64,000 nucleotides of DNA, taken from positions 34,542 to 98,541 of the IMG/VR virus record IMGVR_UViG_3300037011_000200; one strand, written 5' to 3'. This document shows positions 39,701-58,682 of the stretch, piece by piece. Each line of letters opens with the position of its first letter. The first letter of the stretch is position 1. The notes under the pieces were generated by a model. It saw nothing but the letters and a program-made list of their open reading frames with translations. It made no database searches and was not told the DNA's origin. The DNA is from a virus. The translations under genes and the position numbers were made by a program.

Positions 39701-42700
39701 AGATACTGAGGTGAGACGCGCAACTCGTACAATTCGTGATTTGAACTTTGCAGTATTAGGTGTAGATCCTGCATTGCGTGCAATGGCTCAGGTTGGGGTT
39801 GAGTCTGCAAGACACATTGAGAAAATTTTCCGTACCTTGTTTATGGCTCAAATACGTACCACTTTTTATAATATGATGCGATCTCTAGGGGCTTCTACTC
39901 AAGAAGTTGGAGAAGTGTTGTATCAATTAGGATCTGCAGGATTAAACGTAAACACGTCGTTAGCGGCTGTGGTTCCAACTTTACGTATGATCATTGGGTC
40001 AGAGGCTGATACAACAGAGTCTACCAAATTGGTTGCTGGGGCTTACTATTTATATGGTGATTCACTTCAGGGTGCAATGACTGATACAGAGAAGTTTGCA
40101 CGTATTACAGATATTTTGTCAGCATCGTTTCGTGATCACTTGGTGGAATTGAATGAAATGGTTACTGGTATGGGATATGTGATCACGACTGGAAAATTAT
40201 CAGGGTTATCTTTTGAAGAACTGGCTGCTGCTTTGGGTGTTCTCAATGATAATATGTTGCGGGGATCGAAAGCAGGGCGTTCATTAAATCAGATGCTAGT
40301 TCATTTAGCTCAGCGCACTCAAGATGTTAAAATATCTTTAATGCAAGTTGCTCAGCAGCACGGTGCTGGTGATGTTGTAGCTGAAGCTTTTAAAAAAATA
40401 GAACAAGAAGCTGCTACACAAGGGCGTCAAGTTCGGCCGTTTGATTATCTTATTGAAGCTGGAAAAATTCTAGAACCTGTACTTGCAAAGGCAGGGCTCT
40501 CAACAGAAAATTTAGCTAATCAAGCTCAGATTATGGGAATTATTGGATCAAGAGCGTATGCAGTTCTCTTATTAAAAGCTAGAGAATATGGGCAAGCTCT
40601 CTTCCAGTTGCAATATACATCTTTCGGTGCAGGCGAGCAAATGTCTGATGTAATGGTTACCGGCTTCGCTCGTGCTGTAAATAGGATTGAAGGCTTTGCT
40701 CGCTCAGGTATGGGACGTGTGTTTGGAATCTTTAAAGGTACTGTAGAAGGAATTGGAGGAAGTCTTGTTCGTCTGGAAGATACCACACGTGGTGTATTTG
40801 GTACATTTGGACTTGAGGTTAACAATGCGAAGAGTTTAATATCTAGCTTTTTGTTAATCTTGTCTGCACAAGCAGTTCTGAAGATTTGGGGAAAGAGTTT
40901 GCCTTTCTTTCCTAACATTAAGAAGACAATTGAAGACTTCAAAAATTGGAGAGCAACTACCCAGGAAACTTCAGCTGCTTTTATGAACTTTTCTAGAGCA
41001 GCTTTTACTTCAACTACTCCAATTGAAAAACTGGGTTTATTGACTAGACAATACTTTGAGAAAGTTCCTGAGACTGGTCGACTGTCTTCTGCTCTACGGG
41101 GGGCTAACTTACAATTTGTTGCGCTTACAGGAAATGTTGGTGCATTGACAGAACAGCAGCGTGTTGCTGTTCAAAGTGTAACTCAGTTTGGAAAAGTCTT
41201 AACTCAAGTGATGGCTGGTGCTCCAATTGGGCAAATGCGTTTATACTTGGATCAAGTCTCTCAAGTAAGTGCTGTACAACAAATCCTTACAACTAGGCCT
41301 TTCAAAATACAAATAGATACAGCTGAGGCAGTTGCGCGGTTGAGATCAGGCGAGCTTAGTATAGGATCTTTCAGGCAGAAGTTTTTTGAGTTACAGAAAG
41401 AGGCAGCAAAGGGGGGTATTAAGTTTCCTCAGTTTATGGGTGCAACTTTTCTTACTTCAGGGGTAGAGGCTATACGTTCACTTAGTGGTACATATGCTCA
41501 GTTTGAAGATGTTATTCGTGGAGTGAGTAAGGGATCAATTGGAGATTTCACTAAGTTTCAACAGGTAGTGTCTGATCCTGCTGCTTGGAATCAATTTGTA
41601 ACTACTGTAAAGACAGCAGCTCAAACTGGTGAAGAAAGTATGGTTCGACTGTCTGAGTCAATTGTTGGGATAAACGAAAAAGGAACTATTCCGGCAGCAC
41701 GAGCGTTTGAAGCTCAAATGGCAAGATTTGGGGTTGCTGTACAAACAGAGGCAATGAAATCAATGACATGGGGTCGATATCTTGGGGAAGTATTCAAAGT
41801 TGCATTTCCGGGGCTAGTGAATTTATGGAGTGGTATTAAAAACTTTGGTGCAACCTCCCAAAGAGTTTTTTCGGCTTTTGTAGTACTTATAAGAAGCGCA
41901 ACTAGTAGCATGAGAGGTTTGGAGACAGCATCTGCTCTTGCTACTATTCGAATAGCTGGTCTAGGAGCTGCTGCAAAGGCTTTCGCAGCTTTGAGGGCTG
42001 TCCTTGCAGCTGTGACTGGTAATCTTTTACAACTTGCTTTACAAATTGCGACAACTCTTCTTTATGCATATGGATTTGATAAAGCATTAAATTGGTGGGA
42101 AAGACTCACCAGAGGAGTAGATAAATATGCTGAGGAGGTAGGTCAGGCGGGTGCAGAGTTTCAAAAGAGTGTTGCTTTTATGACTGCACCATTACCTCAA
42201 ATGATTTCGTACTTTGAGAGAGTCGGTGAAACACTTGATGAGATGATGGCATCAGATCGAACCTTCTTTGTAAAAACTGATAGTATTGACAATGCGGTTG
42301 CTAAATTTAGTGAATTAAGTATGTTGGTTCAAAGCAGTACCATGTCAGAGATTAAGATTCTTGTAGATACTGGGAGACTTACGGAGGCAAATGTATTATT
42401 GCGGCAGTCAATACCTGAAATAGTAAAAGCGCGTGAGGAAGCTGCTAAAAGAGTTTTCATGAACTTTGGCAATTTTGGTAGAGACTTTAGTATTATGGTG
42501 ATGTCAAGCAAACCTGCTATTAATAAAGCAATGAAAGAAATTAGTGAGTTAGTATACAAAAGTTTATCAGATGCTGAACGTATGAAAATCGATCCGAACA
42601 TGTTAAAAGTCAAAACTCTTAACATTTCGAAAATTCCTTTGGATAAACTAACACCCGAAGTTATTCAGTGGCAAAAGGTGGGTATTAAGGCTGCTGAACA

Positions 42701-45700
42701 AATTGCAGAAGGCGCTGCTTCCGTATTTCAGACAGGTGCTCGAGTTTTGAGTTTGATGATGAGGATCGACCCTTCAAAGGTGGGCAAGGAGTTTGCATTA
42801 AAGTTTACTAGGGAAATACAAAAGACTGTACCTTTAATTGAGGGTTCCTTTCAAGAAATTTCCAGAGAAATGCAGCAAGGTGTTTTTGGAGATCCTCGGG
42901 TTATCGAAGAAAGCCTTGACAGAATAACAAAAGCTTTTGTACGTACTGCTTCAGGGAAAAAGTATATTGGTGACCTTACTAGAGCAATGAAGGATTTTAG
43001 AGAAGAAGTGTTTGAGACCAAAGGGATGACTCCTGAAAGGTTTGTTTTTACATATCTTCCACTCTTAGCTAAAGAAAGTTCACAAGAGGTTCAACAACTT
43101 GCAAAAGTTTTGGATGATCCTCTTGTAACTGATTTGCGAAAAGCTCTCTTGTTAGTCAATGCTTTTAATAAAGAGTTGGCTGTTTTTGTTGCAGAACAAA
43201 CAAAAATTCAAGAAGGGGCCAGTATTGCATGGAATTTACAATCGGTTGCTGACCTAGTTGATGCTTTGCGTGATAAATTTGAGACACTACGTCAAAAGAT
43301 TGAGCTTGTAGGTGCTGAACCTGTCGCTGATATGAAACAAAATATAGAATCTAGTTTCAAGGAAATTGAAGGAAAGATTAGAGGACATAAGAACCTCTCA
43401 CTCAAGTTGGATGTGGGATTAGTAATGACTGATTGGGCTGTTGATTTTAATAAAGCATTTGAAGGGGCATTTACATATGCACCAGAATCTGTTTTGGGTA
43501 AATGGGAACGTGAGTTTTATAAAACGGCCGATCCTTTAAGAGAAGCATTCTCAAGTGCCTTTACTGAAATATCTTTTTGGGCTGAAGATGCCGGAAGAAG
43601 TATCGAACAAGGATTATCTATCCCGGGTTTTGATGCAATTGTAAAAGCATCTCAATCGGGCTTAACTGTATTGGAAAGAGGCCAACGAGATTGGGTATTA
43701 GATCTTCGTCATAATTTTCATTCTGCAGAGTTATATCAGGAAGAATACATAAAAACATTAAATTCACTTGCTAAATCGGGCCAGTTGACACTGTCTCAGG
43801 TTTCTACCGAAAGAATTCCTACTGTGGACTTAGGAGGTAAAGGAGGTGAAGGCGGTGGAGAGACTTCACGACTCGAAGAAACCAAGAAAGAGTTGCAAGC
43901 TAGTTTGAAGGAAGGACTTGACGAAGCTCAAAAGTTAGCAGAAGCTATTCAGAAGAATGTTCGTGGTGCCATTGATAGTACTATTAAACGTGTTGAAGCA
44001 TTGCTTTCAGCTCTTTCTAAGGTAGTTGAAGTAAATATCAAAGTAGCTGAATCAGCTAGAAAAATGTCTTCAGGCTATAATCTCGCTAATAAGTTGTTGG
44101 AAACCACAATAGGGTATGCAGAGAAGTTATCTGAACAAACGAATTTGTGGGCGGTTCAACTTCAAAGATTACAAGTTGGTTTTGATGTAAGTCGAATCGC
44201 AAAACAGTTTGAAAGAGTTACTCAGGCATATCAGGGTAGTGGTCCTGAGTTGCAAATAGGTCCTGAAAAAGCAGCTGAGCGAATGGGTCAGATCATTGAC
44301 GAATTGAATAAGTCTGTTGATCAATCAATGGGTAATCTTATCAATGCGGTTACTCGTGCATTTGATATAGCTGCAAAGGAAGATGAGAAATATATTGACA
44401 AACGATTGAAAAACAACCTAAAATGGTCTGATGAAATTTCAGCTTCTGATGACACATATTATCAAAACCAGATTCAGGAGATTGATAAGTTAACTAGTGT
44501 TAGTGAAACGGAAAAGGAAAGACGCAAAGCTCAAATTCAGAGTGAGATTGAATGGTCAAAGAAAGTAGCAGATGTGAGGAAGGCTAAACTTGAAGCTGAA
44601 GCTGAACGATCTAAAGAATTAGATCAAGAGATACGGACAGGTGAACTTGTTCGGTTTATGAAAGAGATATTTGGAAAGAAGGGTGAACTTACACTTGATG
44701 AGCAAGGAATGGAAACAGCTCTTCAAAAGTTATCTATCAAAAGTCCTGAGTTGATGTTTGCTCTAAAGAGTTATCAAGGAACACAGGAAGCAGCTAAAAA
44801 TCAGTTAGAAGCAATAGCTACTTTTAATGAGTCAATCGAAAAAAATATTAGAAATAATCTCAAACAAGCTGAGGATCAATTAAAGGAATTGAGTATTATA
44901 GATAAATCAGTGGAAAAATTCGCGATCGATGTAGGTAAACAGTTGCGTGAGATTGCATTTGCTCTTAAGAAAGGCAAGATAGGGAATGGTCCAGGTGAAG
45001 TCTTTGACTTAATGGACAAGTTGAAGGGTACTGTTTCTATACCTAATATTGCAGAGACATCTAGTGGTACATATAAGCTAGCGTCAGAAGAAACCTCAGC
45101 ACGTGCCCTTGATATAAATATGGTTAAGGAGTCTGTGCTAGCCTTTGATCAATCACTTGATCAAGTATCAAAATCCCTTTCAGAGGGAGGGTTTGAACAG
45201 CTCCAACAAAATCTTCAAGCGCTTTCCGGAGGAATGAATAACTTTCTCCAGCGAATGATAGAGGGACAAAGTCCTGAACAATTGAGGCAAGCAGCCGTAT
45301 CTGTGAGGCAAGCAGCCGTATCTGTTTCAGAAACTCTTGAATCAGCTCAAACAAAATTATCCGGAGCAGCCGCAAATAATGTTAATATGCTTGAAGAGGT
45401 GGTACGTGCAACCAGAAGTCTAGGTACTTTACCCTATATTGCAGAGACATCTAAGCCAGCGCCAAAAGAGACTACATTGCGTGCCTTTGGTATGACTTAT
45501 GGGAAAGTTACGTTTGATTTGAATTCAGTGGGTGAAAAGATTCAAAATGGAGCAGCCACAATACAGCAGGGTGCACAGGTAACAGGTCAAGCTTTAGTAG
45601 ACGCAGGCCAAGAAATTGAACGAAGTGGGGTGGCCGCAGCACAAAGAATAGCTGGTGTTGAGATTTCAACTCCAATAAACCAAATGAAAACTTCTCTGAC

Positions 45701-46661
45701 ATCTTATAGTAGGGGCTTCACAAATGTTATGTCATCAATGAAAGACAAGCTTCAGGTGTTCACAGAGTTTAGAATGCCTGATCAAGATCCTGCAGCTCTT
45801 ACACGTATATTCGGGGATTTAGTTTCTAGTTTTGGCGGATACTCTGAAAGTCTAAGGAGAATTACACTTCCTGAAGGAATTCCTGAATTTGGTATGGTTA
45901 AGGAGTCTGTGCTAGCCTTTGATCAATCACTTGATCAAGTATCAAAATCCTTGGGAGAGTCACAAATCAGTTCTAAAGGGTTTGAACAGCTCCAACAAAA
46001 TCTTCAAGCGCTTTCCGGAGGAATGAATAACTTTCTCCAGCGAATGATAGAGGGACAAAGTCCTGAACAATTGAGGCAAGCAGCCGTATCTGTTTCAAAA
46101 ACTCTTGAATCAGCTCAAACAAAATTATCCGGATTATCCGGAGCAGCCGCAATACAGCAGGGTGCTCCTGCAATTGCTGCTGCAACGGATTTGGTGAATA
46201 TAAGTTTTAATACAGTTGCTGATAATGCTAAAAATCTTGCTAATATACTTGAAGAGGTGGTACGTGAGATTGGAAGTCGAGGTTCTATACCTATACCTAC
46301 AAGTGGAGTAGTCACTAAGCAGTTTGGTGGTCCCATTCCGGGTTTTGGTGGGGGTGATAAACATCATGTATTAGCTGAGGGTGGAGAATTTGTTATTCGT
46401 AAGGAGATGGTCAGACGATACGGCCAGGATTTGTTCAACGCATATAATGAAGGAAAGATTAAAGCAGATGAACTTGCAGCATGGATGGGGATATCTGCAA
46501 TTAAGTCTGCAGTACAAAAACAAAAGATTCTTGAATCGCCTGTGAAAAGATTCTCACTTGATATTGTAGGTACTCCATTCAAGGGTTTGGCAACAGAAGA
46601 TATGTTAACTCAACTTGAGAAGGGTCTCAAGAGAAAACGTATGGTGGGCCAAAATAAATAA
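30729..46661 (+). CDS. Giant tape measure protein (5310 residues)
   Basis: One uninterrupted frame of 15.9 kb, a quarter of the window. Sequence is almost wholly helical with Gln-, Ala- and Leu-rich repeats. A PhageMin_Tail-like core lies near residues 3000-3200 (VGEVLYQLGSAGLNVNTS, GLSFEELAAALGVLNDNM, GSKAGRSLNQML), then hydrophobic segments near 3735-3785 that may enter the host membrane. The C-terminus has the classic GPIPGFGGGDKHHVLAEGGE with FVIRKE. Tape measures set tail length at roughly 0.15 nm per residue, giving a tail near 0.8 micrometre. Comparable lengths are known from Thermus phages P23-45 and P74-26. Internal duplications occur near residues 4800-5140. Confidence 0.95.
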   Translation: MEQLGIVGSLDISQIKSQVDELNRVLGTLENSFRKVENVFSSVESSLGKVQGASKGLSDTLAGVRTSLSGMGNITQVATQVQKSVQEIQKTATGIKLDFKISDPGKSIKPWIDELQLVEKQVRSVTEKINKETQQTRSRFSDSADEISNFRGAMVATGKGQIPIWNEARTNLQSMVDVLGSYVVNLEKANQRGKLLGKKSLRTEMITGPFQQAQDMLFSFTDMVKGTPVSELFADWEDPLRSFSTSMEKTFGSTKWLTLFQKNFEPFRGTLAELAAVPAQQMSTAFTSLIPESKAMGALFMDIFTAKGPQELEASLRSLRANLAMLMPESAGAKALFMNFQELATLLRTRFLATSFIDFEPVITQALFRVGQLTEEFIQAKAAGRDTSQIVIGLAAAARELASEAQRVGVGIQGFMARAPGAGMETSITRLESAFQEEGLVAQETGNRAQEFFNIIRAGQTSLKQTANEIEKTAAATGKWGELARSTYVDLRRIVSTYQSFGRPTVISGIPESASTSAEKLSSTAAIPRDLKRQVDSLAGAYGLWATADITARQSFQRTGYITLDILRQLYKGFGEVAARPMMPAARVQELQRVRGALEKLLPPMELSKTVSTTAYNSFQFLARGATQFSNLIPKIVERLNASILKTRVDIVDPTAATKAIQPFEALKKVLVGLQGDLQVIAQEITLLYAKGAPSIEAIAQAFMKIRPETLERAFQAVTELQGAGRMLGARAVTGPLDVALAQVKAIGQIPPAFEQAFAKIQPMTTGFLDPEVAKRSMKVFAADLAGMFGGIDVVRSARKNGEQWAVNFTQAVNQGVKPISQFIKEQPGAPIPPEMVQKLQSQMAQAFFSAKLPQLFSGIEESLFTSVGILNRMGPAAEKFRAPLQQAQLDTQRLVELFLKIKFPDLRAGEDVGVLERDFSKLSSKISTDLKASFGGVGETIMGQLAQAYKSLGKLPMGAQLFGLAGNTDQMLRQVFGVFSRLLPTLKTEMLQTFDMPLEMATEFFGKLQQDAIQFRALVSQSAQPLISMKDALAGTANVFERLNMARRLGAPAEVVESIRAEADAFMKDKEQARQLSKQKEELGAAESNVGRLTELAITFLERETKSFSNLGQAANISLGALTSVISKQAGLFKGLTRDMGIKDLLTFEGVVPTGITPEVSKYLQAFYNNVGTNLDKLRQVTDQKIGVWSVGFGKGMNNFASVVKQNAFRLRGVMETVQSSAATGAQFRWEGLFDEPTVLALQKSSGRISSVLKRFQEDLMKFGQGTARRVEFGPVTQSLQQELAFVLNLAESVRQKIAVGEVGTEQLPAVNRLFQYAIQLDGAITALERPYQRMSEVASKGKASFTQLGRTFGSELYKATQEMGRSVTGLKQPIGLIVQKMFGEIFVPENLERITEFRGITEFLGERFPSQVQFALNVAAKRGIPVQKLLQQMIPVNAATLEEAFRNAPDVPRVLLEKMFRPESSLKFQQTAKGVVEQIIRAPMKEGLQRASELMSVDALKSFSQFSLADSILQPARRDLSKLRQVGPEYASQLNQVINYISAVLKTVPTGRRMGGILEQAGFDYSQIQALQAFVRGAQGPLYQLRNILTQAADPLKGISPEKMKLDLGLDRTVMGNLQRAAGDEEKLGKMTQFLSTMYDQAGASLIEFVARQETWSSKSIQDLTELMSFWKGLGEIIRLITQELPKMGTAQGLMGFEFKASDLLTRGAEAGSSFRQGLMQSMDLAAIGGGIGKMLAAIIAKDPEMIFEIMRTGSIRLREELRRLGYEGKGSIGALASSIEKLLPGTTLGPQFFGAYFEANERFFLESDKTTLAIMNIVQGFEQIRPTAAANLVATLERASAALHEADISFRGFGEGLGAHTVEFKAFSDKQRTLIQQYASGMAGAIKSQAALYQADPFERSFVRLIRSEDTLFDQLRNVIQTRGNEIKQVNEQAYKGLTEFISKPISTRTVADIAKVSQMPGLEQFTDIGGLLTKLAGVRRLFENVGQSVKSLQGMKPFEGYVRDAASLEVNMLKVMRTITSSLDRISQGKGMQLNVKESLVELGSLRERLSVITSEMQGWAQASAAGGAQLPYSFELTANSVAKMGRVLENVISVLRALPASGRVTEQSLQRLNDLSKDLWGSLKAVDQITLKDLGAQIEAIFSKAFGEKMGPWLYQGFAKVPAGARTFFGNFQKQLQTEGSNVNVLLQTMSTEFQSIFAKFGGRPQLMLQYFEKATPQMRLLLSQFFEQAGLLTGAGFQSWITQWSQYMGEMNIEEKKGLEKLQKQMLEGLSTFRETKFFPEPKVPTTLFDVAKALRQVGMSLQEIRQISDLGFIKLWGEALTQPFKMIIGQAGEVSVGLGGVFSIIGNKMAVFANSLDAVRQAFLGLRQDSVQVQEGFVAFITLIEKLSAAFRESKVVGSQWGVEIVSQLSVLGTVGKSLSDFTKGAAGIADFPRILREIDFGGLGQQLTTFMTGMGGAAAQTQVPEQFMAPLKSFLGMAKQLNQFAFAAENILKLTQAFSTLQAQLGSSQAVFQSFEGTFQIFRKMFELLPTLSIPMGPAVPAGAIESARNFAQVIAPLASAIRSVQDINFDAAINNINRAATEFKAALEKLFLALEQVPISSQTQKVISFLSRLATAFSKIDWTVNPQVITQQFVSTARAIEKGQQIVEGQVQEGAAQIASAAEKAGDQIKRSGLGSLGDLVEPSLISLFGAGEEPVPEYLRTTSQAYTQTLQGIGERTRMLVTEFAQASGQANIFGETLMQMARGGPSAAFRQMVDDLIMLGPAITQDTTKFNEMRQSLERFLTDVSQMKGVGAQFTELSARIGTPAMMGPSGLVQTLSDTARAIDKVQKAGAETTFLDMMIKSRSKAQELHIQVGGLLNYMQSMGPRLRESLTTGFARREFYSQISDIRRALEQAMTPLRGFVGFPQIRVDMEKMSSDLSRMSSMSTGILTVWDRFSGVIRSARDSFLNLIAYQTRWYLSMQIFWAVFGQMDQVIMNFGKLDTEVRRATRTIRDLNFAVLGVDPALRAMAQVGVESARHIEKIFRTLFMAQIRTTFYNMMRSLGASTQEVGEVLYQLGSAGLNVNTSLAAVVPTLRMIIGSEADTTESTKLVAGAYYLYGDSLQGAMTDTEKFARITDILSASFRDHLVELNEMVTGMGYVITTGKLSGLSFEELAAALGVLNDNMLRGSKAGRSLNQMLVHLAQRTQDVKISLMQVAQQHGAGDVVAEAFKKIEQEAATQGRQVRPFDYLIEAGKILEPVLAKAGLSTENLANQAQIMGIIGSRAYAVLLLKAREYGQALFQLQYTSFGAGEQMSDVMVTGFARAVNRIEGFARSGMGRVFGIFKGTVEGIGGSLVRLEDTTRGVFGTFGLEVNNAKSLISSFLLILSAQAVLKIWGKSLPFFPNIKKTIEDFKNWRATTQETSAAFMNFSRAAFTSTTPIEKLGLLTRQYFEKVPETGRLSSALRGANLQFVALTGNVGALTEQQRVAVQSVTQFGKVLTQVMAGAPIGQMRLYLDQVSQVSAVQQILTTRPFKIQIDTAEAVARLRSGELSIGSFRQKFFELQKEAAKGGIKFPQFMGATFLTSGVEAIRSLSGTYAQFEDVIRGVSKGSIGDFTKFQQVVSDPAAWNQFVTTVKTAAQTGEESMVRLSESIVGINEKGTIPAARAFEAQMARFGVAVQTEAMKSMTWGRYLGEVFKVAFPGLVNLWSGIKNFGATSQRVFSAFVVLIRSATSSMRGLETASALATIRIAGLGAAAKAFAALRAVLAAVTGNLLQLALQIATTLLYAYGFDKALNWWERLTRGVDKYAEEVGQAGAEFQKSVAFMTAPLPQMISYFERVGETLDEMMASDRTFFVKTDSIDNAVAKFSELSMLVQSSTMSEIKILVDTGRLTEANVLLRQSIPEIVKAREEAAKRVFMNFGNFGRDFSIMVMSSKPAINKAMKEISELVYKSLSDAERMKIDPNMLKVKTLNISKIPLDKLTPEVIQWQKVGIKAAEQIAEGAASVFQTGARVLSLMMRIDPSKVGKEFALKFTREIQKTVPLIEGSFQEISREMQQGVFGDPRVIEESLDRITKAFVRTASGKKYIGDLTRAMKDFREEVFETKGMTPERFVFTYLPLLAKESSQEVQQLAKVLDDPLVTDLRKALLLVNAFNKELAVFVAEQTKIQEGASIAWNLQSVADLVDALRDKFETLRQKIELVGAEPVADMKQNIESSFKEIEGKIRGHKNLSLKLDVGLVMTDWAVDFNKAFEGAFTYAPESVLGKWEREFYKTADPLREAFSSAFTEISFWAEDAGRSIEQGLSIPGFDAIVKASQSGLTVLERGQRDWVLDLRHNFHSAELYQEEYIKTLNSLAKSGQLTLSQVSTERIPTVDLGGKGGEGGGETSRLEETKKELQASLKEGLDEAQKLAEAIQKNVRGAIDSTIKRVEALLSALSKVVEVNIKVAESARKMSSGYNLANKLLETTIGYAEKLSEQTNLWAVQLQRLQVGFDVSRIAKQFERVTQAYQGSGPELQIGPEKAAERMGQIIDELNKSVDQSMGNLINAVTRAFDIAAKEDEKYIDKRLKNNLKWSDEISASDDTYYQNQIQEIDKLTSVSETEKERRKAQIQSEIEWSKKVADVRKAKLEAEAERSKELDQEIRTGELVRFMKEIFGKKGELTLDEQGMETALQKLSIKSPELMFALKSYQGTQEAAKNQLEAIATFNESIEKNIRNNLKQAEDQLKELSIIDKSVEKFAIDVGKQLREIAFALKKGKIGNGPGEVFDLMDKLKGTVSIPNIAETSSGTYKLASEETSARALDINMVKESVLAFDQSLDQVSKSLSEGGFEQLQQNLQALSGGMNNFLQRMIEGQSPEQLRQAAVSVRQAAVSVSETLESAQTKLSGAAANNVNMLEEVVRATRSLGTLPYIAETSKPAPKETTLRAFGMTYGKVTFDLNSVGEKIQNGAATIQQGAQVTGQALVDAGQEIERSGVAAAQRIAGVEISTPINQMKTSLTSYSRGFTNVMSSMKDKLQVFTEFRMPDQDPAALTRIFGDLVSSFGGYSESLRRITLPEGIPEFGMVKESVLAFDQSLDQVSKSLGESQISSKGFEQLQQNLQALSGGMNNFLQRMIEGQSPEQLRQAAVSVSKTLESAQTKLSGLSGAAAIQQGAPAIAAATDLVNISFNTVADNAKNLANILEEVVREIGSRGSIPIPTSGVVTKQFGGPIPGFGGGDKHHVLAEGGEFVIRKEMVRRYGQDLFNAYNEGKIKADELAAWMGISAIKSAVQKQKILESPVKRFSLDIVGTPFKGLATEDMLTQLEKGLKRKRMVGQNK
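45120..45340 (+). repeat. Tape-measure internal duplication, copy A
   Basis: Encodes VKESVLAFDQSLDQVSKSL, then GFEQLQQNLQALSGGMNNFL and QRMIEGQSPEQLRQAAVSV. Nearly identical DNA recurs at 45894-46140. Copy A also carries an in-frame 21-base tandem duplication (45284-45304 and 45305-45325), doubling the heptapeptide RQAAVSV. Confidence 0.85.
45894..46140 (+). repeat. Tape-measure internal duplication, copy B
   Basis: Second copy of the module at 45120, with an insertion of about eight codons (GESQISSK) after VSKSL and a single RQAAVSV. The near-identity at DNA level implies a recent event that would lengthen the ruler without disturbing the frame. Confidence 0.85.
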
Positions 46662-47098
46662 TGGAATATCAATTGACTGTAATGGATCCTAGTTTAATCA
46701 TCGATCTCCCAGGAGATATGGTTTTTGAGAATGAGTTTGACTGGTCTGATATAAAAGGGTCTAATGATCGAACTCTTGGTGGTACTCTTATCATTTGGAC
46801 CAATACAGTATTTAAGGGAAGACCGATTGATTTAGTAGCAACAGATAATCGAGGATGGATTTCACGTAGTACTATAGAGAAGCTTTATACTGCTGTTCAA
46901 GCAATGTCAACTATGGAGTTAAAACTTACTTTCACAAGAAGGTTGAAAAGTACAGGAGAACCAGAAACAGTAACTTATAATGTAATGTGGCGGTATAATG
47001 AACCACCTGTTATGGAAGTAAGGCCTTTGATTGCTTCCAGAGTTGAATTAGTAGATGGTGATTATTATACTGGAACACTAAAGTTTGTGGAGGTCTAA
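46661..47098 (+). CDS. Tail protein downstream of the tape measure
   Basis: 145 residues, start overlapping the tape measure stop. Beta-rich (GGTLIIWTNTVFKGRPIDLVA, ETVTYNVMWRYNEPPVME). The ending TGTLKFVEV resembles small distal-tail or baseplate-initiator proteins. Assignment by position and character only. Confidence 0.55.
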   Translation: MEYQLTVMDPSLIIDLPGDMVFENEFDWSDIKGSNDRTLGGTLIIWTNTVFKGRPIDLVATDNRGWISRSTIEKLYTAVQAMSTMELKLTFTRRLKSTGEPETVTYNVMWRYNEPPVMEVRPLIASRVELVDGDYYTGTLKFVEV

Positions 47099-47586: not shown

Positions 47587-49008
47587 ATGGCAGTTGAAAG
47601 ATCAGACATACGATTCGTAAAGAGTGCAACCGTGACAGATACCACCAGCAATGGTGGGAAGATGAGTTATAATTATATTCAGAATCGAGTAAAGTATAAT
47701 TTATTCCCACGTGTCACAAGGCCTGAACGTGTAGCAGGAATTATCAGATATCGCAAGGAGTATATCTGGAACCGAGAGGCGTCAGGTGAAACAGCCTTCG
47801 GTTTACTTACGTATATCATTTTGCCTAGCTTGGCTGATGATCTCTTCCGTATTGCGGAAGCAACTCAAGATGATACACAAGGTGATATCGATGACGATTA
47901 TGATTGGTATGGAGCTGGTAATTTGAATGCTGGCGCTTCAGCAGGAGCAAGTTCCATAAATGTCAACTTTGAGGATGACGACATCGCTCTCAAGAATGGT
48001 GTTTTGCTTGCGATCAATAGTCATTTCTTGATGAGTGAAAATATTGATTCTGCTGTCAAACCTTTCAGTCAGGTGTATTGGAATGGCTCGAAATGGATTG
48101 CGCAGAATGCGCCTACAGAAGATGCTGAAGATGTTTATCCTTATGGGACTTGTATTCAGGTTCTCGGTGGTGGAAAGGGCAACATCTTCTCATATAACTC
48201 TGCTGGAAACCTTGAGTATCATCGTATAGATGATCCTACATACACTGAAAATATGACTCCTGCTCCTACAGGAGGAGTAGTTGCATACACATTGGTTGCA
48301 GCGAACACTCCAGTTTTGGAAGAATCCGTTTCAGTAGAATATTGCTTCTCGAGTGTTATGCATACAGCTACTGATGATGGAGAAGGGCATATCACAGGAA
48401 GTCATATTGTTTCGGGTGCTGTAGTGTATTCTACAGGAAACATGAATATCACTTTTTCTACGAATCCTGATCCTAGTACACAGATCGCGGTGACCTATCA
48501 TGAGAATATCGTTTCATGGGCAGGTACAGTTGCGACTGTGCAACTCGAAGATACCCTACTTAACAACTTTCTTTCTGCGAACACTAAAGTAGGCATGTGC
48601 CTCGAATTGGGAGACTTGGCTCCAATTGTCGAACTTATTTCAGAGGCTTTTGGTGATCCTTCAGGAGACTTTGATGAGTCTTTGGTTACTGGAACTAACA
48701 AAGGTTCCATTGAAGAGACCTGGACCCTTCAGTTCACTTCTGTGAATGCGTTCACTGTAACCGGGGCTGGAGTAGGTGTCATTGGATCTGGGTCTAAGAC
48801 GGTTACATATTCTCCTCTTAACTCGGGTCAGGGAGCTGCTTACTTCTCGATTCCTGCGACAGCATGGAGTGGAACCACACAGGCAGGTGATACTGTAATA
48901 TTCAAGACATATCCTGCAGCTGCTCCCATTTGGTGGAAGGAAATAGTTCCATCAAGTACAAATGCGTTTAGCAACAATGTTGTTATGCTTGAAATTTACG
49001 TTGAGTAA
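47587..49008 (+). CDS. Tail tip structural protein with beta modules
   Basis: 473 residues; ATG 47587 after GGAGGGCTG. N-terminus RSDIRFVKSATVTDTTSNGG and a middle acidic region (DDTQGDIDDDYDWYG) are followed by a module VVYSTGNMNITFSTNPDPS with IAVTYHE. That matches in style the tail-tube inserts at 28022 (YETGKISVKFSSALVAGAVV). C-terminal residues are beta-rich. A baseplate or tail-tip component is likely; no enzymatic motif seen. Confidence 0.6.
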   Translation: MAVERSDIRFVKSATVTDTTSNGGKMSYNYIQNRVKYNLFPRVTRPERVAGIIRYRKEYIWNREASGETAFGLLTYIILPSLADDLFRIAEATQDDTQGDIDDDYDWYGAGNLNAGASAGASSINVNFEDDDIALKNGVLLAINSHFLMSENIDSAVKPFSQVYWNGSKWIAQNAPTEDAEDVYPYGTCIQVLGGGKGNIFSYNSAGNLEYHRIDDPTYTENMTPAPTGGVVAYTLVAANTPVLEESVSVEYCFSSVMHTATDDGEGHITGSHIVSGAVVYSTGNMNITFSTNPDPSTQIAVTYHENIVSWAGTVATVQLEDTLLNNFLSANTKVGMCLELGDLAPIVELISEAFGDPSGDFDESLVTGTNKGSIEETWTLQFTSVNAFTVTGAGVGVIGSGSKTVTYSPLNSGQGAAYFSIPATAWSGTTQAGDTVIFKTYPAAAPIWWKEIVPSSTNAFSNNVVMLEIYVE

Positions 49009-49527: not shown

Positions 49528-51879
49528 ATGGGAATTGTATTACTTGGGTATGTTGAGGGTCGAACCTTTGGTGCATGGCGTGGAAATGACATCAAGGAGG
49601 GATATTTCTGGAGTTGCTATCAATGCATAGGTTTTAATGAATATATTGTTCAATACCTTCCTAATATTATTGAGATGATACCAAACCAGGAAGGTATTCA
49701 AGTATCATGTAGGCCCACCTCTTTAGCATCATTGGCAAACTCAATTTTATATACTCCACTTGGAAGTGAATGCATTCACGGATCTTGGAATGTTCTTCAT
49801 AGTCAAATAAATAAGACTGTAATCATCCCTGTTCCATTAGCTCTTAATGGATTTGAATTTCCAAGATTCATAGGTTCAGGAATTAGTAAACAGCCCTCTC
49901 AAGTTTTTAATGTTCCATTAATTGAAGGTGTACTTGTTGAGCAGTTTAATCCTGTTATAATACGAGACTCTGATTTATCATTTACTAATGTAATTCCAAC
50001 GGGATTTGCAGATCGTCCTATAATAGAGTCAAGAGTAAATGATCTTATACTTTCTGTTTCTTTACCTCTCTTTATAACAAGTTCTTTAGCACATTCTGAT
50101 ATCTCAATGATTCAATATATGTCAGGATCTGTAGGAGAATATATTGTAAAGGTTCGAGTAAATGATCTTATTGAAGGGCTGCAGATTTCTCAATGGGTTA
50201 GTTTTGAAGTATTAGATCATCCTGCAACCTTTATTCACGAGTTGGGTTTAGACATAACCAATTTCACTCTACTATTTTCTTTTACTATCCCTTCTGAAAT
50301 TGAGCCTAGAGTTCCCTTCGGTAAGGAAGATTCTGATCCTGCAATATTATGGTATGACCCTCCGCCAGCACCTATTCCATCTATTTTACCGATTCTCAAA
50401 GTTATTCAATTTGATATTCTGATTGATGGCATATCATGTAGGAATAGACTTTCCGGTGCAAGTATCACTCAACAAGAGTCTGACATTTTAACACATGTTG
50501 AATTAGTTTTCAAGGATACTACTTTCTTCAGTCAGTGTAGCATTACTGCAGGATCGGGGCCAGGAACCGAACGAATTACTGTTCGAGTAGGTGAAGATAT
50601 TACTGATCCTAATAGACATACATTATATAAATTTTTACTTGAGGAAAGATCTGCTTCTGAAGCGGGTTTACAGTTTACTGTTTGGGGGAGATCGAAGGCA
50701 GCTATTCTCACAGAACCATTTAGCCCTACAATTACTAAGACTTATGAGAATATGAATGCGAGTACAATTGTGAGTGATCTTGCAGGAAGCATTCCAATAG
50801 TTTGGGGTATTGATGATCATGTGCATTATGAGTTTAACGTTGATGGTTATCCCTTAGATGCGATCCAACAATTGGCTGAAGTGATAGGAGGTGTTGTTAG
50901 AGCAACGCCTGAAGGAAGTCTTGTAGTTCGTCGAAAGTTTCCAGCACGTCCTAGAGATTTGATAAGAGGTGATATTGTTACTGGAAATGTTTTGGATAGG
51001 TACTCAGCTATTGTAGAAGCTGATTATTCCGAGGAGCAACCTCAGTATAATGCAGTTGATGTCTTAGGAGGTGGAAAGTATTCATCTTGGGATTTTTCCA
51101 TAGAAGCTGAGAATGATTGTATCGAACCAGGAACACCTGCTTTCTTTAAGGTGTATCACTCTCCAGGGATTACTATATATAATCCTAACGAATCTGGTGT
51201 TGTAGGGTATCAAGTTTGTACTACAATTTCATTGGCTGAAGTTAACAATCTCAATGTAGTGGAAACTATTACAGATGAATATATCGATATTATAAATGAA
51301 GCTGGAAGTTTGAATCGTGAGTGTTTTAGATTAATTTCTACTGAATGGCATGGGACTCCTAAAGGGTCGCAGTGTATTGAACCTGATGATATAGAAATTA
51401 CGATTACCGGAAAGGATATTTCAGTTCCCAATGTTTTGACAGGCCGTTTAAAGGTAAGCTATGAAACACAATATGACCGATTCAAAATTCAGTATGATCA
51501 GGAAGCTGATATCCTTATAGGTATATTGGCACCTGAACATGAGGGTATTTATATTCGTGTTATCATGCAAGGGACGCCTGGAGATAAGTTAGGACCTGAA
51601 ATTCAAGATGATCTTATAACTAACGAGAATATGGCGGTTCTAAGGGGTCAATCTTTTCTTGATGATATGTACTACCGCAAACATAAGTGGACGCTTAAGA
51701 TTCCTTTCTATCTACCTCAAGGTTTATTTGATGGCAGTATTGTTAGAATGGAAGATGACTTTTGGGGGTTAGTAGGTAATGCTATAATTAGGCAGGCAGA
51801 TATTTCCTTTGACCTAGAAGAGGAAGATGTTCATAAGATCTGGCAGAATTTAGAGGTTCATATGTTTTCTTATCCATGA
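49528..51879 (+). CDS. Tail hub / baseplate protein
   Basis: 783 residues. The N-terminal 250 residues are beta-rich. From about 290 the pattern resembles tail-hub proteins of the gp27/gp44 kind: ILIDGISCRNRLSGASIT, FTVWGRSKAAILTEPFSPT, NASTIVSDLAGSIP, QQLAEVIGGVVRATPEGSLVVRRK. The C-terminal part contains KHKWTLKIPFYL and GSIVRMEDDFWG. It would sit at the tail tip, through which the tape measure and DNA leave. Followed by a small OB-like protein gene, as in many hubs. Confidence 0.65.
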   Translation: MGIVLLGYVEGRTFGAWRGNDIKEGYFWSCYQCIGFNEYIVQYLPNIIEMIPNQEGIQVSCRPTSLASLANSILYTPLGSECIHGSWNVLHSQINKTVIIPVPLALNGFEFPRFIGSGISKQPSQVFNVPLIEGVLVEQFNPVIIRDSDLSFTNVIPTGFADRPIIESRVNDLILSVSLPLFITSSLAHSDISMIQYMSGSVGEYIVKVRVNDLIEGLQISQWVSFEVLDHPATFIHELGLDITNFTLLFSFTIPSEIEPRVPFGKEDSDPAILWYDPPPAPIPSILPILKVIQFDILIDGISCRNRLSGASITQQESDILTHVELVFKDTTFFSQCSITAGSGPGTERITVRVGEDITDPNRHTLYKFLLEERSASEAGLQFTVWGRSKAAILTEPFSPTITKTYENMNASTIVSDLAGSIPIVWGIDDHVHYEFNVDGYPLDAIQQLAEVIGGVVRATPEGSLVVRRKFPARPRDLIRGDIVTGNVLDRYSAIVEADYSEEQPQYNAVDVLGGGKYSSWDFSIEAENDCIEPGTPAFFKVYHSPGITIYNPNESGVVGYQVCTTISLAEVNNLNVVETITDEYIDIINEAGSLNRECFRLISTEWHGTPKGSQCIEPDDIEITITGKDISVPNVLTGRLKVSYETQYDRFKIQYDQEADILIGILAPEHEGIYIRVIMQGTPGDKLGPEIQDDLITNENMAVLRGQSFLDDMYYRKHKWTLKIPFYLPQGLFDGSIVRMEDDFWGLVGNAIIRQADISFDLEEEDVHKIWQNLEVHMFSYP

Positions 51880-51886
51880 GGTTGTT

Positions 51887-52117
51887 ATGATACAACTCAG
51901 TCCGTTAAAGAAGCAACTCAGTAAAGGAAAAGTAATTGGGATGACTGCAGGGCGGTATCTTGTTCAGGTAGGGCAGGGAACCGTTATGGCTTACAGTAAA
52001 TCCAAATATATTGTAGGTGATTCAGTTGTACTAGCACTCATGGATAAAACGTTTCAAATCATATCTGACCACCGAATGGTGTCTAGACAAATAAAGGAGG
52101 TTTACATCGATGGCTGA
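51887..52117 (+). CDS. Small OB-fold-like tail tip protein
   Basis: 76 residues; ATG 51887 after GAGG. KGKVIGMTAGRYLVQVGQG and YIVGDSVVLALMD read as a small beta-barrel of the type encoded next to tail hubs. Overlaps the next gene by 8 bases. Confidence 0.55.
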   Translation: MIQLSPLKKQLSKGKVIGMTAGRYLVQVGQGTVMAYSKSKYIVGDSVVLALMDKTFQIISDHRMVSRQIKEVYIDG

Positions 52118-52700
52118 TCAAAAAGAAGTTGTCAAAGGCAATATAACTGTAACATTTTCATACAAATGTTTATCGACGTCGAGCATCTCTATTGAGCTTG
52201 ATGACAAAAAGAATAATGACAAGACTTGTTTCTTATTTGGTGAAACAGTCTACTTTAAGGTATATACAATACCCTCGGATATGAATCTGGCAATTTTTTC
52301 CAGTGCAGGCAGCGTTGACTTGTCTGGCAGTCAGACAACCGAAACCGTTCGAGGTACTGTTCAGGAGTTTATTGATGAAATCACTGCAACAGTAAACAAA
52401 CCTATCATTGACGGTCCGAACAATGTACTTTGGTTTGGAAATGATTGGGGTCCTCTGGTCAAGGTTGATGAAGGCTCATTCAAAGCATCGGGTGCAGAAA
52501 ACCTTGATGATCCAGATAATGCACGAGTAAATCTCGAACATATAGCTTGCTGCATCTTCAATTATGGAACTTCATATAGATCTGGTTCCCTGTCCAATGT
52601 TGGTGAAAACCTTAATGATAATATTTCAGATCTTGAAGTATCTGTGATTGTGTATGTGGTGGAAACGACTGAGGGTGGTATAGTAAATCCTTACGTGTAG
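52110..52700 (+). CDS. Tail tip/fibre protein, unknown
   Basis: 196 residues; ATG 52110 with AAAGGAGG. Shares with the next protein the N-terminal layout xITVTFSYKC, then ISIELDDKKN and an F-x-x-G-E/D-x-x-Y-F/I-x-V-Y element, so the two look paralogous. The C-terminal half has a CC pair and Asn-rich loops. Probably a receptor-contact component. Confidence 0.55.
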   Translation: MADQKEVVKGNITVTFSYKCLSTSSISIELDDKKNNDKTCFLFGETVYFKVYTIPSDMNLAIFSSAGSVDLSGSQTTETVRGTVQEFIDEITATVNKPIIDGPNNVLWFGNDWGPLVKVDEGSFKASGAENLDDPDNARVNLEHIACCIFNYGTSYRSGSLSNVGENLNDNISDLEVSVIVYVVETTEGGIVNPYV

Positions 52701-53575: not shown

Positions 53576-55702
53576 ATGTCTGATGCTTGTGTTCAGCAAA
53601 GTCTTAGTTCTGTAGACTTAACTGTTTATCTCGAGAGGGACAGCTTTTGGTCAAATGGTGTTATGGACGGTCGCTTCAAATGCAAGACGTCCATTGAGGA
53701 AACCTATCCAGAGAAGGAGAAAGAACAGGAGCGGGTTCCTTTCTCTATGGCAATAATGAGTGAAACTATAAGTTTCAACAATAGTGATACTGCGCACTTA
53801 AGTGCAATCTATTTAGGTCCTGCAAATAAAAGAGGAGCTCCATATCGGTGGTTATTTAATATACAAGAGTATGAAACGAAGACAGAGTGGTATAAAGATA
53901 AAGAGGCTTCAACATTTCCTCCTGTTTGGAAACATCGATTTACGAAAACTTTAAAGCTCGCGCCTAGTGTAACTCTTTCTGAAGGTAGCAATGAAGTAAA
54001 ATTAGATTCGCCTTCGACTGGACGTTTGCAGGTAATGTACAAGTATGATACTTCTCCTGCATACGTTGCAAAGAGAGCCAAACGTGCAACAGCAGATCCT
54101 GTAGAAATTAGCGTCCCCCTAAACGCTAAAGGATACGATGCGACAGCCAATGAGTTTGAAGTATTTTTGGTTCCTAATGATAAGGACGAGATTGGATGTT
54201 TGCTGTGTAATCCGCTTACTAGTGGTCCAAAGAAACCTTGGAAGGATAAAAGCTCTTCTTATGAATTGGCAGATGAACTTGCAGCTCATCTGAATTGGGC
54301 CAGAGCTACTCATCCTGAATTATGTCCTGGCGGTTCTGCTCTTGAAGTTGAATACTACTTAATGCAGAGTGCTCAACACTATGCTGGTGTAATCAATATG
54401 CAGAATCCGATTAGTGGATGGACACAAGAAGGAACGATCACAGGATATCATTCCGAGGATGGAGGAAATTTTGAAGCCCGAATCGGTATATGGTATTATC
54501 AAGAAGAATATTACTGTGTCAAAGGAGAATCCGTCGCAATCATAACTGAGATCATTCCTGTAAATCAAAGTTTTACACAATTGGCTGGAGAAGCATTAGC
54601 TAACAAATTAACTGAATTTTGGGGCGGGGCTGATCATACAATATATAATCCGATGTTTGATAGGCTTGGTTGTGGTATCGTTGAATCAACAGTTGCACCA
54701 TTTAATTTTGTTATTATTGGCCCATATCAAATAAAGCGTACAATCGTAGTTGCTCACTTTGTAGGATTCCCAGGCGTTGACGTTCCAACTACTTATGAAC
54801 TCATTCCTGAAATAAGAGATCCATGTTCTCTAGACTGTACAAAGAAGATTGAATGGTATCAAGACTTCTACGAAACAGAAGAATACGTTTTTGACGAAGG
54901 AATGAAGACTGTTAAGCATCCTTTGGAGAATCTTGTGATCCCTTTAAAGCAAATTCCTTTCATCTGTGGAATGAGAAAGATTGTTTTGATTGCTGAAGAG
55001 AGTGGAGTAAAGGGTGAATATATTCCTCCCTTCGGTAGTTTACAGCCAGTCCCATTAGATGGTTCGATGCAGGTTCTTGGAGTTGAAGAATTGGAATTTC
55101 GTTTAAATCTATCTAATATCGCACCGCCTCTTATTCCTGGGGAGTGGATTGCTTTTGTAGCAGAAGTGGGTATACTTAATCCGCCTTGGAGTGAGTGTAA
55201 TTATATCGTGATTGCTGAGGGATGGTTTGAAACTAAATGCCTCACTTCAGGATTCGTTATTGGAAGTGGGCTAATTGAACAACAGCAAGACACTGATGAT
55301 GAAGGCAATCCAAAATTAGATTCTCATCGTAAACCCATTATGAAACTCGTTGTTATTGAAGGTGGTGAAGATTACGCTCTGGATACAAGGTGGATTGGTG
55401 ATGAGCGTATGAGTTGGTATTTACAATTTAAGATGGAGAAGTTTTGGATACGCCCCAGTGATTACGCCCGATATAGTTTAGGACAAAGGGTTTTCATTTA
55501 CAAAAATGGATTTACTCCTGTGAATGAAGGGTCAGGAGTAGCTTTAAAATTAGAAGCTGGATGTCGTTCTCATTCCATTCAGCAGACTATGGAAACGGAA
55601 AATCGACTGGAACCGTTGTCTTTCAGTGATGTATCATATGAACTCGATATAGAGAAGGACATAGTTGTTCCTGAGAAACTTGCAACGGTTATAGGATGGT
55701 AA
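53576..55702 (+). CDS. Tail fibre protein with internal CAP-like domain
   Basis: 708 residues. Residues about 228-371 fit a CAP (SCP/PR1) domain: ELADELAAHLNWARATHPEL, YYLMQSAQHYAGVINM, SEDGGNFEARIGIWYY, then LANKLTEFWGG with ADHTIYNPMFDRLGCGIVES. The flanking regions are beta-rich and unknown. CAP domains occur in secreted proteins that bind lipids, sterols or glycans or, in some cases, have hydrolase activity. The normal H/E catalytic set is only partly visible. Position at the end of the tail operon suggests host contact. Confidence 0.65.
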   Translation: MSDACVQQSLSSVDLTVYLERDSFWSNGVMDGRFKCKTSIEETYPEKEKEQERVPFSMAIMSETISFNNSDTAHLSAIYLGPANKRGAPYRWLFNIQEYETKTEWYKDKEASTFPPVWKHRFTKTLKLAPSVTLSEGSNEVKLDSPSTGRLQVMYKYDTSPAYVAKRAKRATADPVEISVPLNAKGYDATANEFEVFLVPNDKDEIGCLLCNPLTSGPKKPWKDKSSSYELADELAAHLNWARATHPELCPGGSALEVEYYLMQSAQHYAGVINMQNPISGWTQEGTITGYHSEDGGNFEARIGIWYYQEEYYCVKGESVAIITEIIPVNQSFTQLAGEALANKLTEFWGGADHTIYNPMFDRLGCGIVESTVAPFNFVIIGPYQIKRTIVVAHFVGFPGVDVPTTYELIPEIRDPCSLDCTKKIEWYQDFYETEEYVFDEGMKTVKHPLENLVIPLKQIPFICGMRKIVLIAEESGVKGEYIPPFGSLQPVPLDGSMQVLGVEELEFRLNLSNIAPPLIPGEWIAFVAEVGILNPPWSECNYIVIAEGWFETKCLTSGFVIGSGLIEQQQDTDDEGNPKLDSHRKPIMKLVVIEGGEDYALDTRWIGDERMSWYLQFKMEKFWIRPSDYARYSLGQRVFIYKNGFTPVNEGSGVALKLEAGCRSHSIQQTMETENRLEPLSFSDVSYELDIEKDIVVPEKLATVIGW

Positions 55703-55703
55703 G

Positions 55704-58682
55704 ATGCCTCGAATAGAGCACAGAGACGTTTTGTTTTCTGTATCGTCGAGATATTTTTGGGCTCGGATAGATGAAATCAATTCTGATGATGACACAGCTG
55801 ATATTGTTCTAGTTGATTCGAATTCTGAAGACATGTTAGATCCTGAGACAGGAGATCCAATTCTGATTGAAGATGTTCCTATATTTTTCCATTGTGATCC
55901 TGATCCTATTCAACGACCTAATCTCGCGTTAGAAGGAGGTTCAGCAGCGTTTGATATTGACGATATTGTTTACTGTAGGAAGTCTCAAGGCTCATTTATC
56001 AAACCTTTTGTCATTGCTAATTCAGTCTTAAAGAGTTGTGAACCTCCAGGGTTAATCATTGCAACTCCTTCTGGCTTGATTCACATGGATCCTATTTCAG
56101 CTAATCCTCCTGCTGATTATTTCAGGCAAGACTTCTATATGCGTTGGATAGGCAACAACCGAAAGCATCCTTTAGTTCAGAGAACAGTGGGAGAATTCTT
56201 CTTAGATACACCATGTATTACAATGGATGGTAATGTTGATAAGTGGGCCTATGAAAACAATAAAAGACGTGTAGCAATAGGTGAAGAAGCTAAGCATGAA
56301 GGATTTGCTAAAGCATTCGCCCAAATCAATATGACTACATATAACATGCAGCATCCCATTTTAACTTGTGATCCGAAAACATGGTCAAGTACCGCTGGAA
56401 TTTTCGAGCAACACCAAGCTATCTATTATATGAAAGACTATGCAATCCTGTTTGACAAAATGTTTGATCTTGCAGGAGCAAGTGACGGCTGGGGGAGACT
56501 TGGCATCACTTACGGTAAAACGCAACCTATAGATCGCTCTGATGATGACCCTGAAACCGCTGCATTAAGCTTCCCCATTGTTTTCCCAGGCACTAATTAT
56601 GGAGAGAGAGCACAGACACCTAACCCAATTATTAGTGGTAGTGCTAGATTTTTCAAGTGGGTAAACGACGAGAGAAAGAACTTTCATTTAATTCACGAGC
56701 TTAATATAAATTCTGATTTGAACGCCTGTGCACAATCGTATGCTTCTTATTGTGCAACGAATATGTGTCTCGCACATGATTGTGATGGACGAACTCCTGG
56801 TGAGAGAGTAAGTGATTATATTGATCCTTGGCATCTCGTAGGAGAAGTTGTTGTTGCAATTCCTGGTCAAGATCCTCCTTTATCTCTCAACGATGTAATC
56901 GATGCTATGTGGATTGGATGGACAGAAAGTGAACTTCATTATGCTGGGCTAATGAACCCTCAAATGAATCACATTGGATTTGGGTATGCGTTCAATGCTG
57001 GTTGGGGTGCTAATGGTATGTATATAGGTGTTGCCTTAATGCTTAAGAAGATAAGCAAAGGCACATGTGAAAGAGCATACGCGGCACCTTCATATGAAGG
57101 TGACAGATCACCTAATCCGTATCCAATTAATCTAACAGCTTTTTCCCCGCTAGTTACTGAAGCGCATCCACCTAGGTTAAGCCTCCTGTATGGTGGTGAC
57201 TCAATCATTAATAGTTACAAAGCCTTCAGTGCATTTAGTAGGAGACCTAGTTCAACTTACTTATATGGAATCAATATTGAAGCAGACAGAGTATTATATG
57301 ACCCAGATGATCCAGCTCAGACGTACATCTTAAGGATGTATGGATCATGTTGTGAAATTAGTCCATCGAGCTTTGCCCTAACTCCAGGCAATTCCAATCA
57401 ACAGTTCAGTGATACTGAGTACTATTACAATGATTTGATACTTTGGGCATTAGGAACATATATGTGGTTTCCTGGATATATACCAATTCCAACCTATCCA
57501 CCTCCATGGTGGCAAACCCCTCCCATTCCCAGAACATTAATTCCTGAAGGAAGGGAATACTTTGAATATCATCCCAGCGGAAGTTCATTCGTTAAGTTTG
57601 ATATACGAGGGCATACTCCACAAGAGCTTTACGTTGATGATAACCTTGTTGATTCTGGATTCGATCCTCTTGATCCTCCAATCATAGAAGGAGATGGTTC
57701 TCTCATCACGAGAACTCTATTTAGAAACTCAGCCAGAGTTGCCATTAAATCTCTTACTAGTATTCAACCTTTATCTGTATTCCGAACTTGCACAACAAAT
57801 TATACAGCTGTACTTTACTCCAAAAGTGAAACAAATCTTATCTCCTCAATCAATCAAGTGTGCCATAGCAATCGACTCTTAGCCTATTATTTTGAAACTG
57901 TTATAACTACTTATCTCGCTCTCATTTGCAACGATTCAGTTGTTGATAGAGTTCAATTGCAATCATTCCCTTCACATAATTTAAACGATGACACAGCACC
58001 TTCATGCGGAGGAGGCATCCCCAAAACCATTTCATGGCGAGCAGATAGTATTCAAGAGAATTTCATTTTTCTTTTTGATGGTTGCATTTCTGATATAACA
58101 ATATCATATGTCAATCCTGATGATAATGTATTATACTCTTATGCATATGAAGACATCGAACTTGGTCCTTGTCCTGTAGCATTCAAGAATATAGAGCGTT
58201 ATCAGGGCTTAGTAGAGATTGCTTTTGGTCAGCCAGCTCCCATTCGCAACGTCAATTGTACTTCCAGAGTATCTTCCAAATCTGAACCCGCTGAGCCTTG
58301 GAGCTATACTTTTTATTGGTCCTTCATTCATTACAATGAGTACGAAGAATTTATTATCCCTCATTCCTTAAATGGTTTTGTATCCTTATCTCATTCAATT
58401 TCTATGTCTGAAGATGGAACCTATATTTTAGTATCAAACACTCCTATGGATGTAACTTTAATTCCATATATAAATTCAATCCCAGGCGACCCTAATTTTT
58501 GTGATGACGTTTACTCTTATATCATCTCGACAGATCCATCTGAATGGACAATTGACTTTCCTGACAAAGAACGTCCTAAATCAGTGGTTCAATTATTTAA
58601 TAACAATCTAGAACCTTTAACTGATCCTATCTTAACAGGTCAAACATCCAAAGGGATGGGAGAGTATTGTATAGTAAATTAA
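55704..58682 (+). CDS. Large tail fibre/tip protein with CAP domain
   Basis: 992 residues, the last large gene of the tail block. Residues about 310-450 are a clear CAP (SCP/PR1) domain: FFKWVNDERKNF, LNACAQSYASYCATNMCLAH, GRTPGERVSD, LVGEVVVAIPG, IDAMWIGWTESELHYAGL and MNHIGFGYAFNAGWG. The N-terminal part includes an OB-like segment and DFYMRWIGNNRKHP; the C-terminal 500 residues are beta- and Pro-rich with Cys pairs, probably receptor-binding. The preceding gene has a second, more divergent CAP domain. Confidence 0.75.
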   Translation: MPRIEHRDVLFSVSSRYFWARIDEINSDDDTADIVLVDSNSEDMLDPETGDPILIEDVPIFFHCDPDPIQRPNLALEGGSAAFDIDDIVYCRKSQGSFIKPFVIANSVLKSCEPPGLIIATPSGLIHMDPISANPPADYFRQDFYMRWIGNNRKHPLVQRTVGEFFLDTPCITMDGNVDKWAYENNKRRVAIGEEAKHEGFAKAFAQINMTTYNMQHPILTCDPKTWSSTAGIFEQHQAIYYMKDYAILFDKMFDLAGASDGWGRLGITYGKTQPIDRSDDDPETAALSFPIVFPGTNYGERAQTPNPIISGSARFFKWVNDERKNFHLIHELNINSDLNACAQSYASYCATNMCLAHDCDGRTPGERVSDYIDPWHLVGEVVVAIPGQDPPLSLNDVIDAMWIGWTESELHYAGLMNPQMNHIGFGYAFNAGWGANGMYIGVALMLKKISKGTCERAYAAPSYEGDRSPNPYPINLTAFSPLVTEAHPPRLSLLYGGDSIINSYKAFSAFSRRPSSTYLYGINIEADRVLYDPDDPAQTYILRMYGSCCEISPSSFALTPGNSNQQFSDTEYYYNDLILWALGTYMWFPGYIPIPTYPPPWWQTPPIPRTLIPEGREYFEYHPSGSSFVKFDIRGHTPQELYVDDNLVDSGFDPLDPPIIEGDGSLITRTLFRNSARVAIKSLTSIQPLSVFRTCTTNYTAVLYSKSETNLISSINQVCHSNRLLAYYFETVITTYLALICNDSVVDRVQLQSFPSHNLNDDTAPSCGGGIPKTISWRADSIQENFIFLFDGCISDITISYVNPDDNVLYSYAYEDIELGPCPVAFKNIERYQGLVEIAFGQPAPIRNVNCTSRVSSKSEPAEPWSYTFYWSFIHYNEYEEFIIPHSLNGFVSLSHSISMSEDGTYILVSNTPMDVTLIPYINSIPGDPNFCDDVYSYIISTDPSEWTIDFPDKERPKSVVQLFNNNLEPLTDPILTGQTSKGMGEYCIVN

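Follow-up and report, generated by a model that had tools for sequence, protein, structure and literature searches.

Gene order at the end of the tail block

The window analysed here is the whole 64,000-base stretch, bases 34542-98541 of the 98,541-base IMG/VR record IMGVR_UViG_3300037011_000200, and its source is an uncultured long-tailed phage, as judged from genes for terminase, for tail proteins and for two head proteins, the protease and the major head protein. Two large ORFs lie at the end of a block of tail genes; the features of the block, in window coordinates, are as follows.

30729..46661, + strand: tape measure protein of 5310 aa, with which the tail-tip block starts (PhageMin_Tail PF10145, E=1.2e-17)
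46661..47098, + strand: conserved gene directly 3' of the tape measure gene (phrog_4408; PHROG E=6.1e-23)
47587..49008, + strand: phrog_6128-like tail-block protein (E=4.4e-35; syntenic relatives)
49528..51879, + strand: hub-like tail protein (phrog_6079, E=1e-16)
51887..52117, + strand: small ORF of 76 aa between the hub gene and g52110 (from translation)
52110..52700, + strand: tail-block protein of 196 aa (g52110), with a relative in Vibrio phage KarBoss
52710..53570, + strand: tail-block protein of 286 aa (g52710), one end of which is weakly CarboxypepD_reg-like and scores just under the cut-off
53576..55702, + strand: ORF1, 708 aa, encoded in the tail module, its CAP-like domain probable and diverged (open frame; tail-block position)
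54254..54772, + strand: CAP-like region of ORF1, aa ~227-399, with H292, E318 and H354 (HMM, shuffles, hhalign, AlphaFold with a CAP alignment)
55704..58682, + strand: ORF2, 992 aa, tail-module protein with an interior CAP domain (open frame; N-terminus not signal peptide-like)
56640..57053, + strand: CAP domain of ORF2, aa ~313-450, with H358, E381, S409 and H412 (Pfam PF00188, HMM, hhalign)

The block runs from the tape measure gene through the phrog_4408, phrog_6128-like and phrog_6079 hub-like genes and the small genes to ORF1 and ORF2, its last two members, and it is tightly packed, with a gap of 5 bases before ORF1 and of a single base between ORF1 and ORF2. Both of the adjacent ORFs described in the first-pass annotation were found, on the same strand. 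In Vibrio siphophages and one freshwater phage, too, the tape measure gene is followed by a relative of the phrog_4408 gene. The order of tape measure, phrog_4408, phrog_6128-like and hub genes is shared with three reference phages, namely the 80-kb Vibrio siphophages CAU_VPP01 and KarBoss and the freshwater phage LR797314; by phmmer, all three contain relatives of g46661, of g47587 and of segments of the hub-like gene, in matching order, and one of them contains a relative of g52110, the hub segments corresponding, in order, to three consecutive genes of CAU_VPP01. In contrast, the examined stretches of the three reference phages yielded neither a CAP match nor a counterpart of ORF1 or ORF2.

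Since the upstream genes are syntenic with siphophage tails, ORF1 and ORF2 were placed last in a tail-tip module, a position in which adsorption proteins are common. The two had originally been called tail fibre genes; gene order and siphophage synteny bear out the tail placement but not the word fibre, and it is safer to speak of tail-tip or adsorption proteins.

Searches with exact peptide patterns in IMG/VR and with tblastn in annotated phages returned no relatives of ORF1 or ORF2, nor, consequently, any that could show co-conservation of the pair. The same exact-pattern search returned none for the hub-like gene, and none in IMG/VR for g47587, although such patterns catch close relatives only, so that zero matches do not prove that relatives are absent. 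The terminase search recovered two fragments only, identical across the matched part, and the NCBIfam search gave nothing useful. Pseudomonas was frequent among the matches listed, but one short pattern biases that listing, and an inference of the host from it was dropped.

Several further features of the record were observed. About 50 N-terminal residues are common to g52110 and g52710 (40% identity), and a module of ~50 aa is common to g52710 and the hub-like protein (49528-51879). By the rule of thumb of ~0.15 nm of tail per tape measure residue, the 5310-aa protein predicts a tail near 0.8 um. Such a length would be in the class of P74-26, whose tail has been described as the longest known for a virus (PMC10034513). 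Repeat-rich noncoding DNA with GCTAACGCTAAAG and ATAAATACCTC units follows ORF2 (58700-59110), and tandem arrays, long and similarly composed, continue up to the contig end (63228-64000); a Staphylococcal-nuclease-like protein with a hydrophobic, signal-like N-terminus is encoded at 60353-60733 (PF00565, E=8.5e-9). Elsewhere in the record, a QueC-like ORF (L003 1136-1873, record 19136-19873) and an ORF like QueD/6-pyruvoyl-tetrahydropterin synthase (L003 10610-11167, record 28610-29167), both read by eye, would point to a DNA modified with 7-deazaguanine.

The CAP domain of ORF2 and the CAP-like region of ORF1

The first-pass annotation had assigned a CAP domain to both proteins, an assignment that is certain for ORF2, with a Pfam score of 34.8 bits, and probable only for ORF1, which has no Pfam match. 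In ORF2, Pfam PF00188 matched aa 328-436 (E=3.4e-8; 34.8 bits, where the cut-off is 21.1), and the CAP search of the genome scored the protein at 39.1 bits. A home-built CAP HMM of 34 bacterial and phage CAP sequences, from which both window proteins were left out, placed ORF2 at the top of the genome ORFs (E=7.3e-15); its seed sequences had been chosen with ORF2 itself, so this HMM is not fully independent, whereas the Pfam model is. Comparison by hhalign with 31 non-redundant CAP sequences covered aa 314-432 at a probability of 97.7%, and the top phmmer match in the PDB was the bacterial CAP protein BB0689 (E=0.002). By its sequence, the domain is certainly a genuine member of the CAP superfamily (PF00188).

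H358, E381 and H412 of ORF2 fall in the family columns of the His/Glu/His cavity residues, which coordinate divalent metal in known CAP proteins, and the position of the second Glu is taken by Ser409, as in many of the aligned bacterial CAP sequences. Outside the cavity residues, identity with relatives is ~30%. Four cysteines (C342, C350, C355 and C360; 56727-56783, aa 342-360) surround the cavity residue His358; this 19-residue cluster is absent from the aligned bacterial CAP sequences and is possibly a metal site or a source of disulfides.

For ORF1, Pfam returned no match even at E<=10, below every curated cut-off, and the region is for that reason labelled CAP-like and not filed as a PF00188 member; phmmer against the PDB likewise returned no matches. 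The HMM built without the window proteins ranked ORF1 second among the genome ORFs, after ORF2 (8.6 bits, E=0.026; next-best ORF, E=1.2), the match being made up of two segments that are collinear and correctly ordered. Its score was reached by 0/5000 residue shuffles and by 1/5000 local shuffles. ORF1 was also second in the genome by hhalign, with aa 226-372 aligned over 113 columns (score 35.9, P=3.8e-4, probability 36%), against a maximum score of 21.1 for the other ORFs of the genome. In this alignment HSEDGGNFEARI of ORF1 pairs with the family motif HtgpDG....RI, KGESVA with GENIA, and IYNPMFDRLGCG with ILNPnFteIGvG. H292 and E318 pair with the CAP family, while MAFFT leaves H292 unplaced; insertions are present, and H354, the second cavity His, is two residues out of register. 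The cavity of ORF1 is, to judge from these alignments, altered relative to the family. A profile of five CAP sequences, which aligned 24 residues only and whose register was rejected, was replaced by the 31-sequence profile, which aligned over the full length.

A structural comparison with CAP folds, proposed at the outset as a check, was run on ORF1 and gave a divided answer. From the single sequence AlphaFold produced no usable model (pLDDT 35.6), whereas the addition of 32 CAP rows yielded a CAP fold with pLDDT 71 and pTM 0.67. Aligned with VIA-align, this model matched CAP chains at Z 9-12 and the first non-CAP chain at 4.6; the matches included 4ifa (Z 12.2, rmsd 3.1, 125 aligned), 4d53 (Z 11.9, rmsd 2.8, 124 aligned) and the CAP domain of PrgA (6z9l, 6z9k). 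As CAP sequences had been fed to AlphaFold, the test is partly circular, and the model speaks for compatibility and is not proof.

Taken as an alternative, the CAP domain would be confined to ORF2, and the likeness of ORF1 would be due to chance and to a structure prediction that the CAP alignment had steered. The silence of Pfam at E<=10, the failure of AlphaFold without CAP rows, the CAP input behind the better model and the one local shuffle in 5000 that equals the score all point that way. Against this, ORF1 ranks second among the genome ORFs in two profile methods, its match spans the full domain in the right order, and its gene adjoins a certain CAP gene. We consider the alternative unlikely, and that ORF1 carries a strongly diverged CAP-like domain quite probable.

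The description of the two domains as divergent copies overstated their relation. BLASTP and phmmer detected no significant similarity between ORF1 and ORF2, in the CAP region or elsewhere, and a recent duplication was rejected on that ground; direct alignment of the two proteins misplaced the motifs. Being without detectable similarity, they are not plain duplicates, and are best regarded as two unlike proteins.

CAP proteins of bacteria and of other phages

CAP domains usually sit in secreted proteins. A simple hydropathy scan detected neither a hydrophobic N-terminus nor a membrane segment in ORF1 or ORF2. Bacterial CAP/SCP proteins of the YkwD type (4ifa of B. anthracis, 4d53 of Borrelia, which is BB0689, and those of Pseudomonas) have the CAP sequence and the His/Glu/His residues in common with ORF2, and the CAP-guided model of ORF1 has the same fold; however, they are secreted or surface-anchored, whereas ORF1 and ORF2 are encoded in a tail block and lack a signal-like N-terminus. 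The enterococcal conjugation protein PrgA (6z9l) offers a likeness as a large protein of several domains, a CAP domain among them, whose site of action in DNA transfer is the cell surface, but it is a cell-wall anchored host protein, and no other domain was shown to be common to it and ORF1 or ORF2.

A scan of IMG/VR with the CAP alignment recovered 18 loci, mostly encoding small proteins, many of them with a hydrophobic, signal-like start, and one encoding a subtilase-like protease fused to a CAP domain. Small phage CAP proteins recur among these loci (L012-L025), and several are without the usual stretch from the first His to the GEN motif. Gene neighbours were scanned at four of the loci: lysis genes adjoin the CAP gene at L021; the neighbours are a methyltransferase, a phosphatase and a DNA polymerase at L019, and a glycosyltransferase and a helicase at L025; and at L012 a portal gene lies several kb away.

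In the literature covered, which was partial, the sole statement found on phage CAP proteins concerns Stills, a Bacillus phage that carries a LysM/SCP-PR1 (YkwD-like) CAP protein (PMC4541274), and, as the first-pass annotation had also held, no described role was found for a CAP pair of this kind. Stills, Slash, Stahl and Staley resemble the present phage in being tailed phages with an encoded CAP domain, annotated in their case as secreted LysM/SCP-PR1 domain or sporulation proteins. Their CAP proteins are of ~200 aa, contain LysM and lie away from tail genes in the stretch seen, whereas ORF1 and ORF2 do not share these features and, with 708 and 992 aa and no signal-like N-terminus, fall outside the Stills secreted type. 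In a predicted-structure library the best viral match of the ORF1 model was A0A8S5RW52 from Siphoviridae sp. ctHip2, a large siphovirus protein of 876 aa; to judge from this structure match, it may be another large CAP-bearing phage protein. Compared with the mostly small secreted phage CAP proteins found elsewhere, a tail protein that incorporates a CAP domain is an unusual architecture, a new variation on a known theme.

Possible roles at the tail tip

For proteins of the tail tip, contact with the host envelope would be the simplest role. ORF1 and ORF2 would be host-contacting distal tail-tip proteins whose CAP cavity engages the host surface at adsorption, a reading to which we assign a probability of about 0.5. 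Bacterial-type CAP domains would have been acquired by the phage as ready-made extracellular modules and built into the virion, at the tail tip, where the cavity (His/Glu/His in ORF2) would engage a glycan, lipid or protein of the host surface during adsorption. The two proteins, being unlike, could each contact a feature of its own, or could serve an early and a late step.

This role is favoured by the CAP domain observed in ORF2, with its cavity residues in the family columns, and by the weaker support for ORF1; by the position of both as the last genes of a tightly packed tail-tip block syntenic with siphophages; and by the lack of the hydrophobic N-terminus that many phage CAP proteins have. 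The CAP fold, an alpha-beta-alpha sandwich with a metal-coordinating cavity, acts mostly outside cells, and its eukaryotic members are documented to bind sterols and related compounds (PMC10189770), which also favours envelope contact. The proposed role is weakened by BB0689, a bacterial surface CAP protein that bound neither heparan sulfate nor any lipid tested (PMC11784157), and by ORF1, which stays below the cut-off and has its second His out of register. The narrower proposition that each of the two unlike tail-tip proteins bears its CAP domain as a metal-dependent receptor-binding or surface-cleaving module is doubtful.

If the cavity were catalytic, the CAP domain of ORF2 could be a tail-borne, peptidase-like hydrolase that opens a way for the tail by cutting a protein or polymer of the host surface, a rather unlikely role. 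Its precedent would be PrgA, described as a stalked surface protease that likely cleaves the adhesin PrgB (PMC10588982); the structural matches of the ORF1 model include the PrgA CAP domain, and CAP sites have been termed 'incomplete protease' active sites (PMC5842191), of which H358, E381 and H412 are kept in ORF2. Hydrolysis by CAP domains is nevertheless poorly documented, and the Ser in place of the second Glu in ORF2 and the rearranged site of ORF1 would be unexpected if both were enzymes.

Tail proteins often take up assorted extracellular folds as decoration, and it is conceivable, if improbable, that the CAP domains are passive spacers or trimer-packing parts of tail-tip proteins, with no ligand. 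The family signature of ORF1, eroded so far that Pfam misses it, would fit such parts; in ORF2, however, H358, E381 and H412 remain in register at ~30% identity elsewhere, which suggests a cavity in use. Release at lysis or secretion outside the virion, as for the phage CAP proteins known so far, which are mostly small, stand-alone and in many cases signal-like, with that of L021 beside lysis genes, is very improbable for two large, multidomain proteins encoded tightly after tail genes, without a signal-like N-terminus or membrane segment.

Widespread as they are, bacterial CAP domains have almost no assigned function. If CAP domains are indeed carried on the tail tip in contact with the host envelope, phage adsorption would provide a direct readout of prokaryotic CAP function, and one more fold would join the envelope-contacting domains of phages; were the metal-dependent receptor-binding or cleaving module also true, it would be the first defined role of a CAP domain in virus adsorption.
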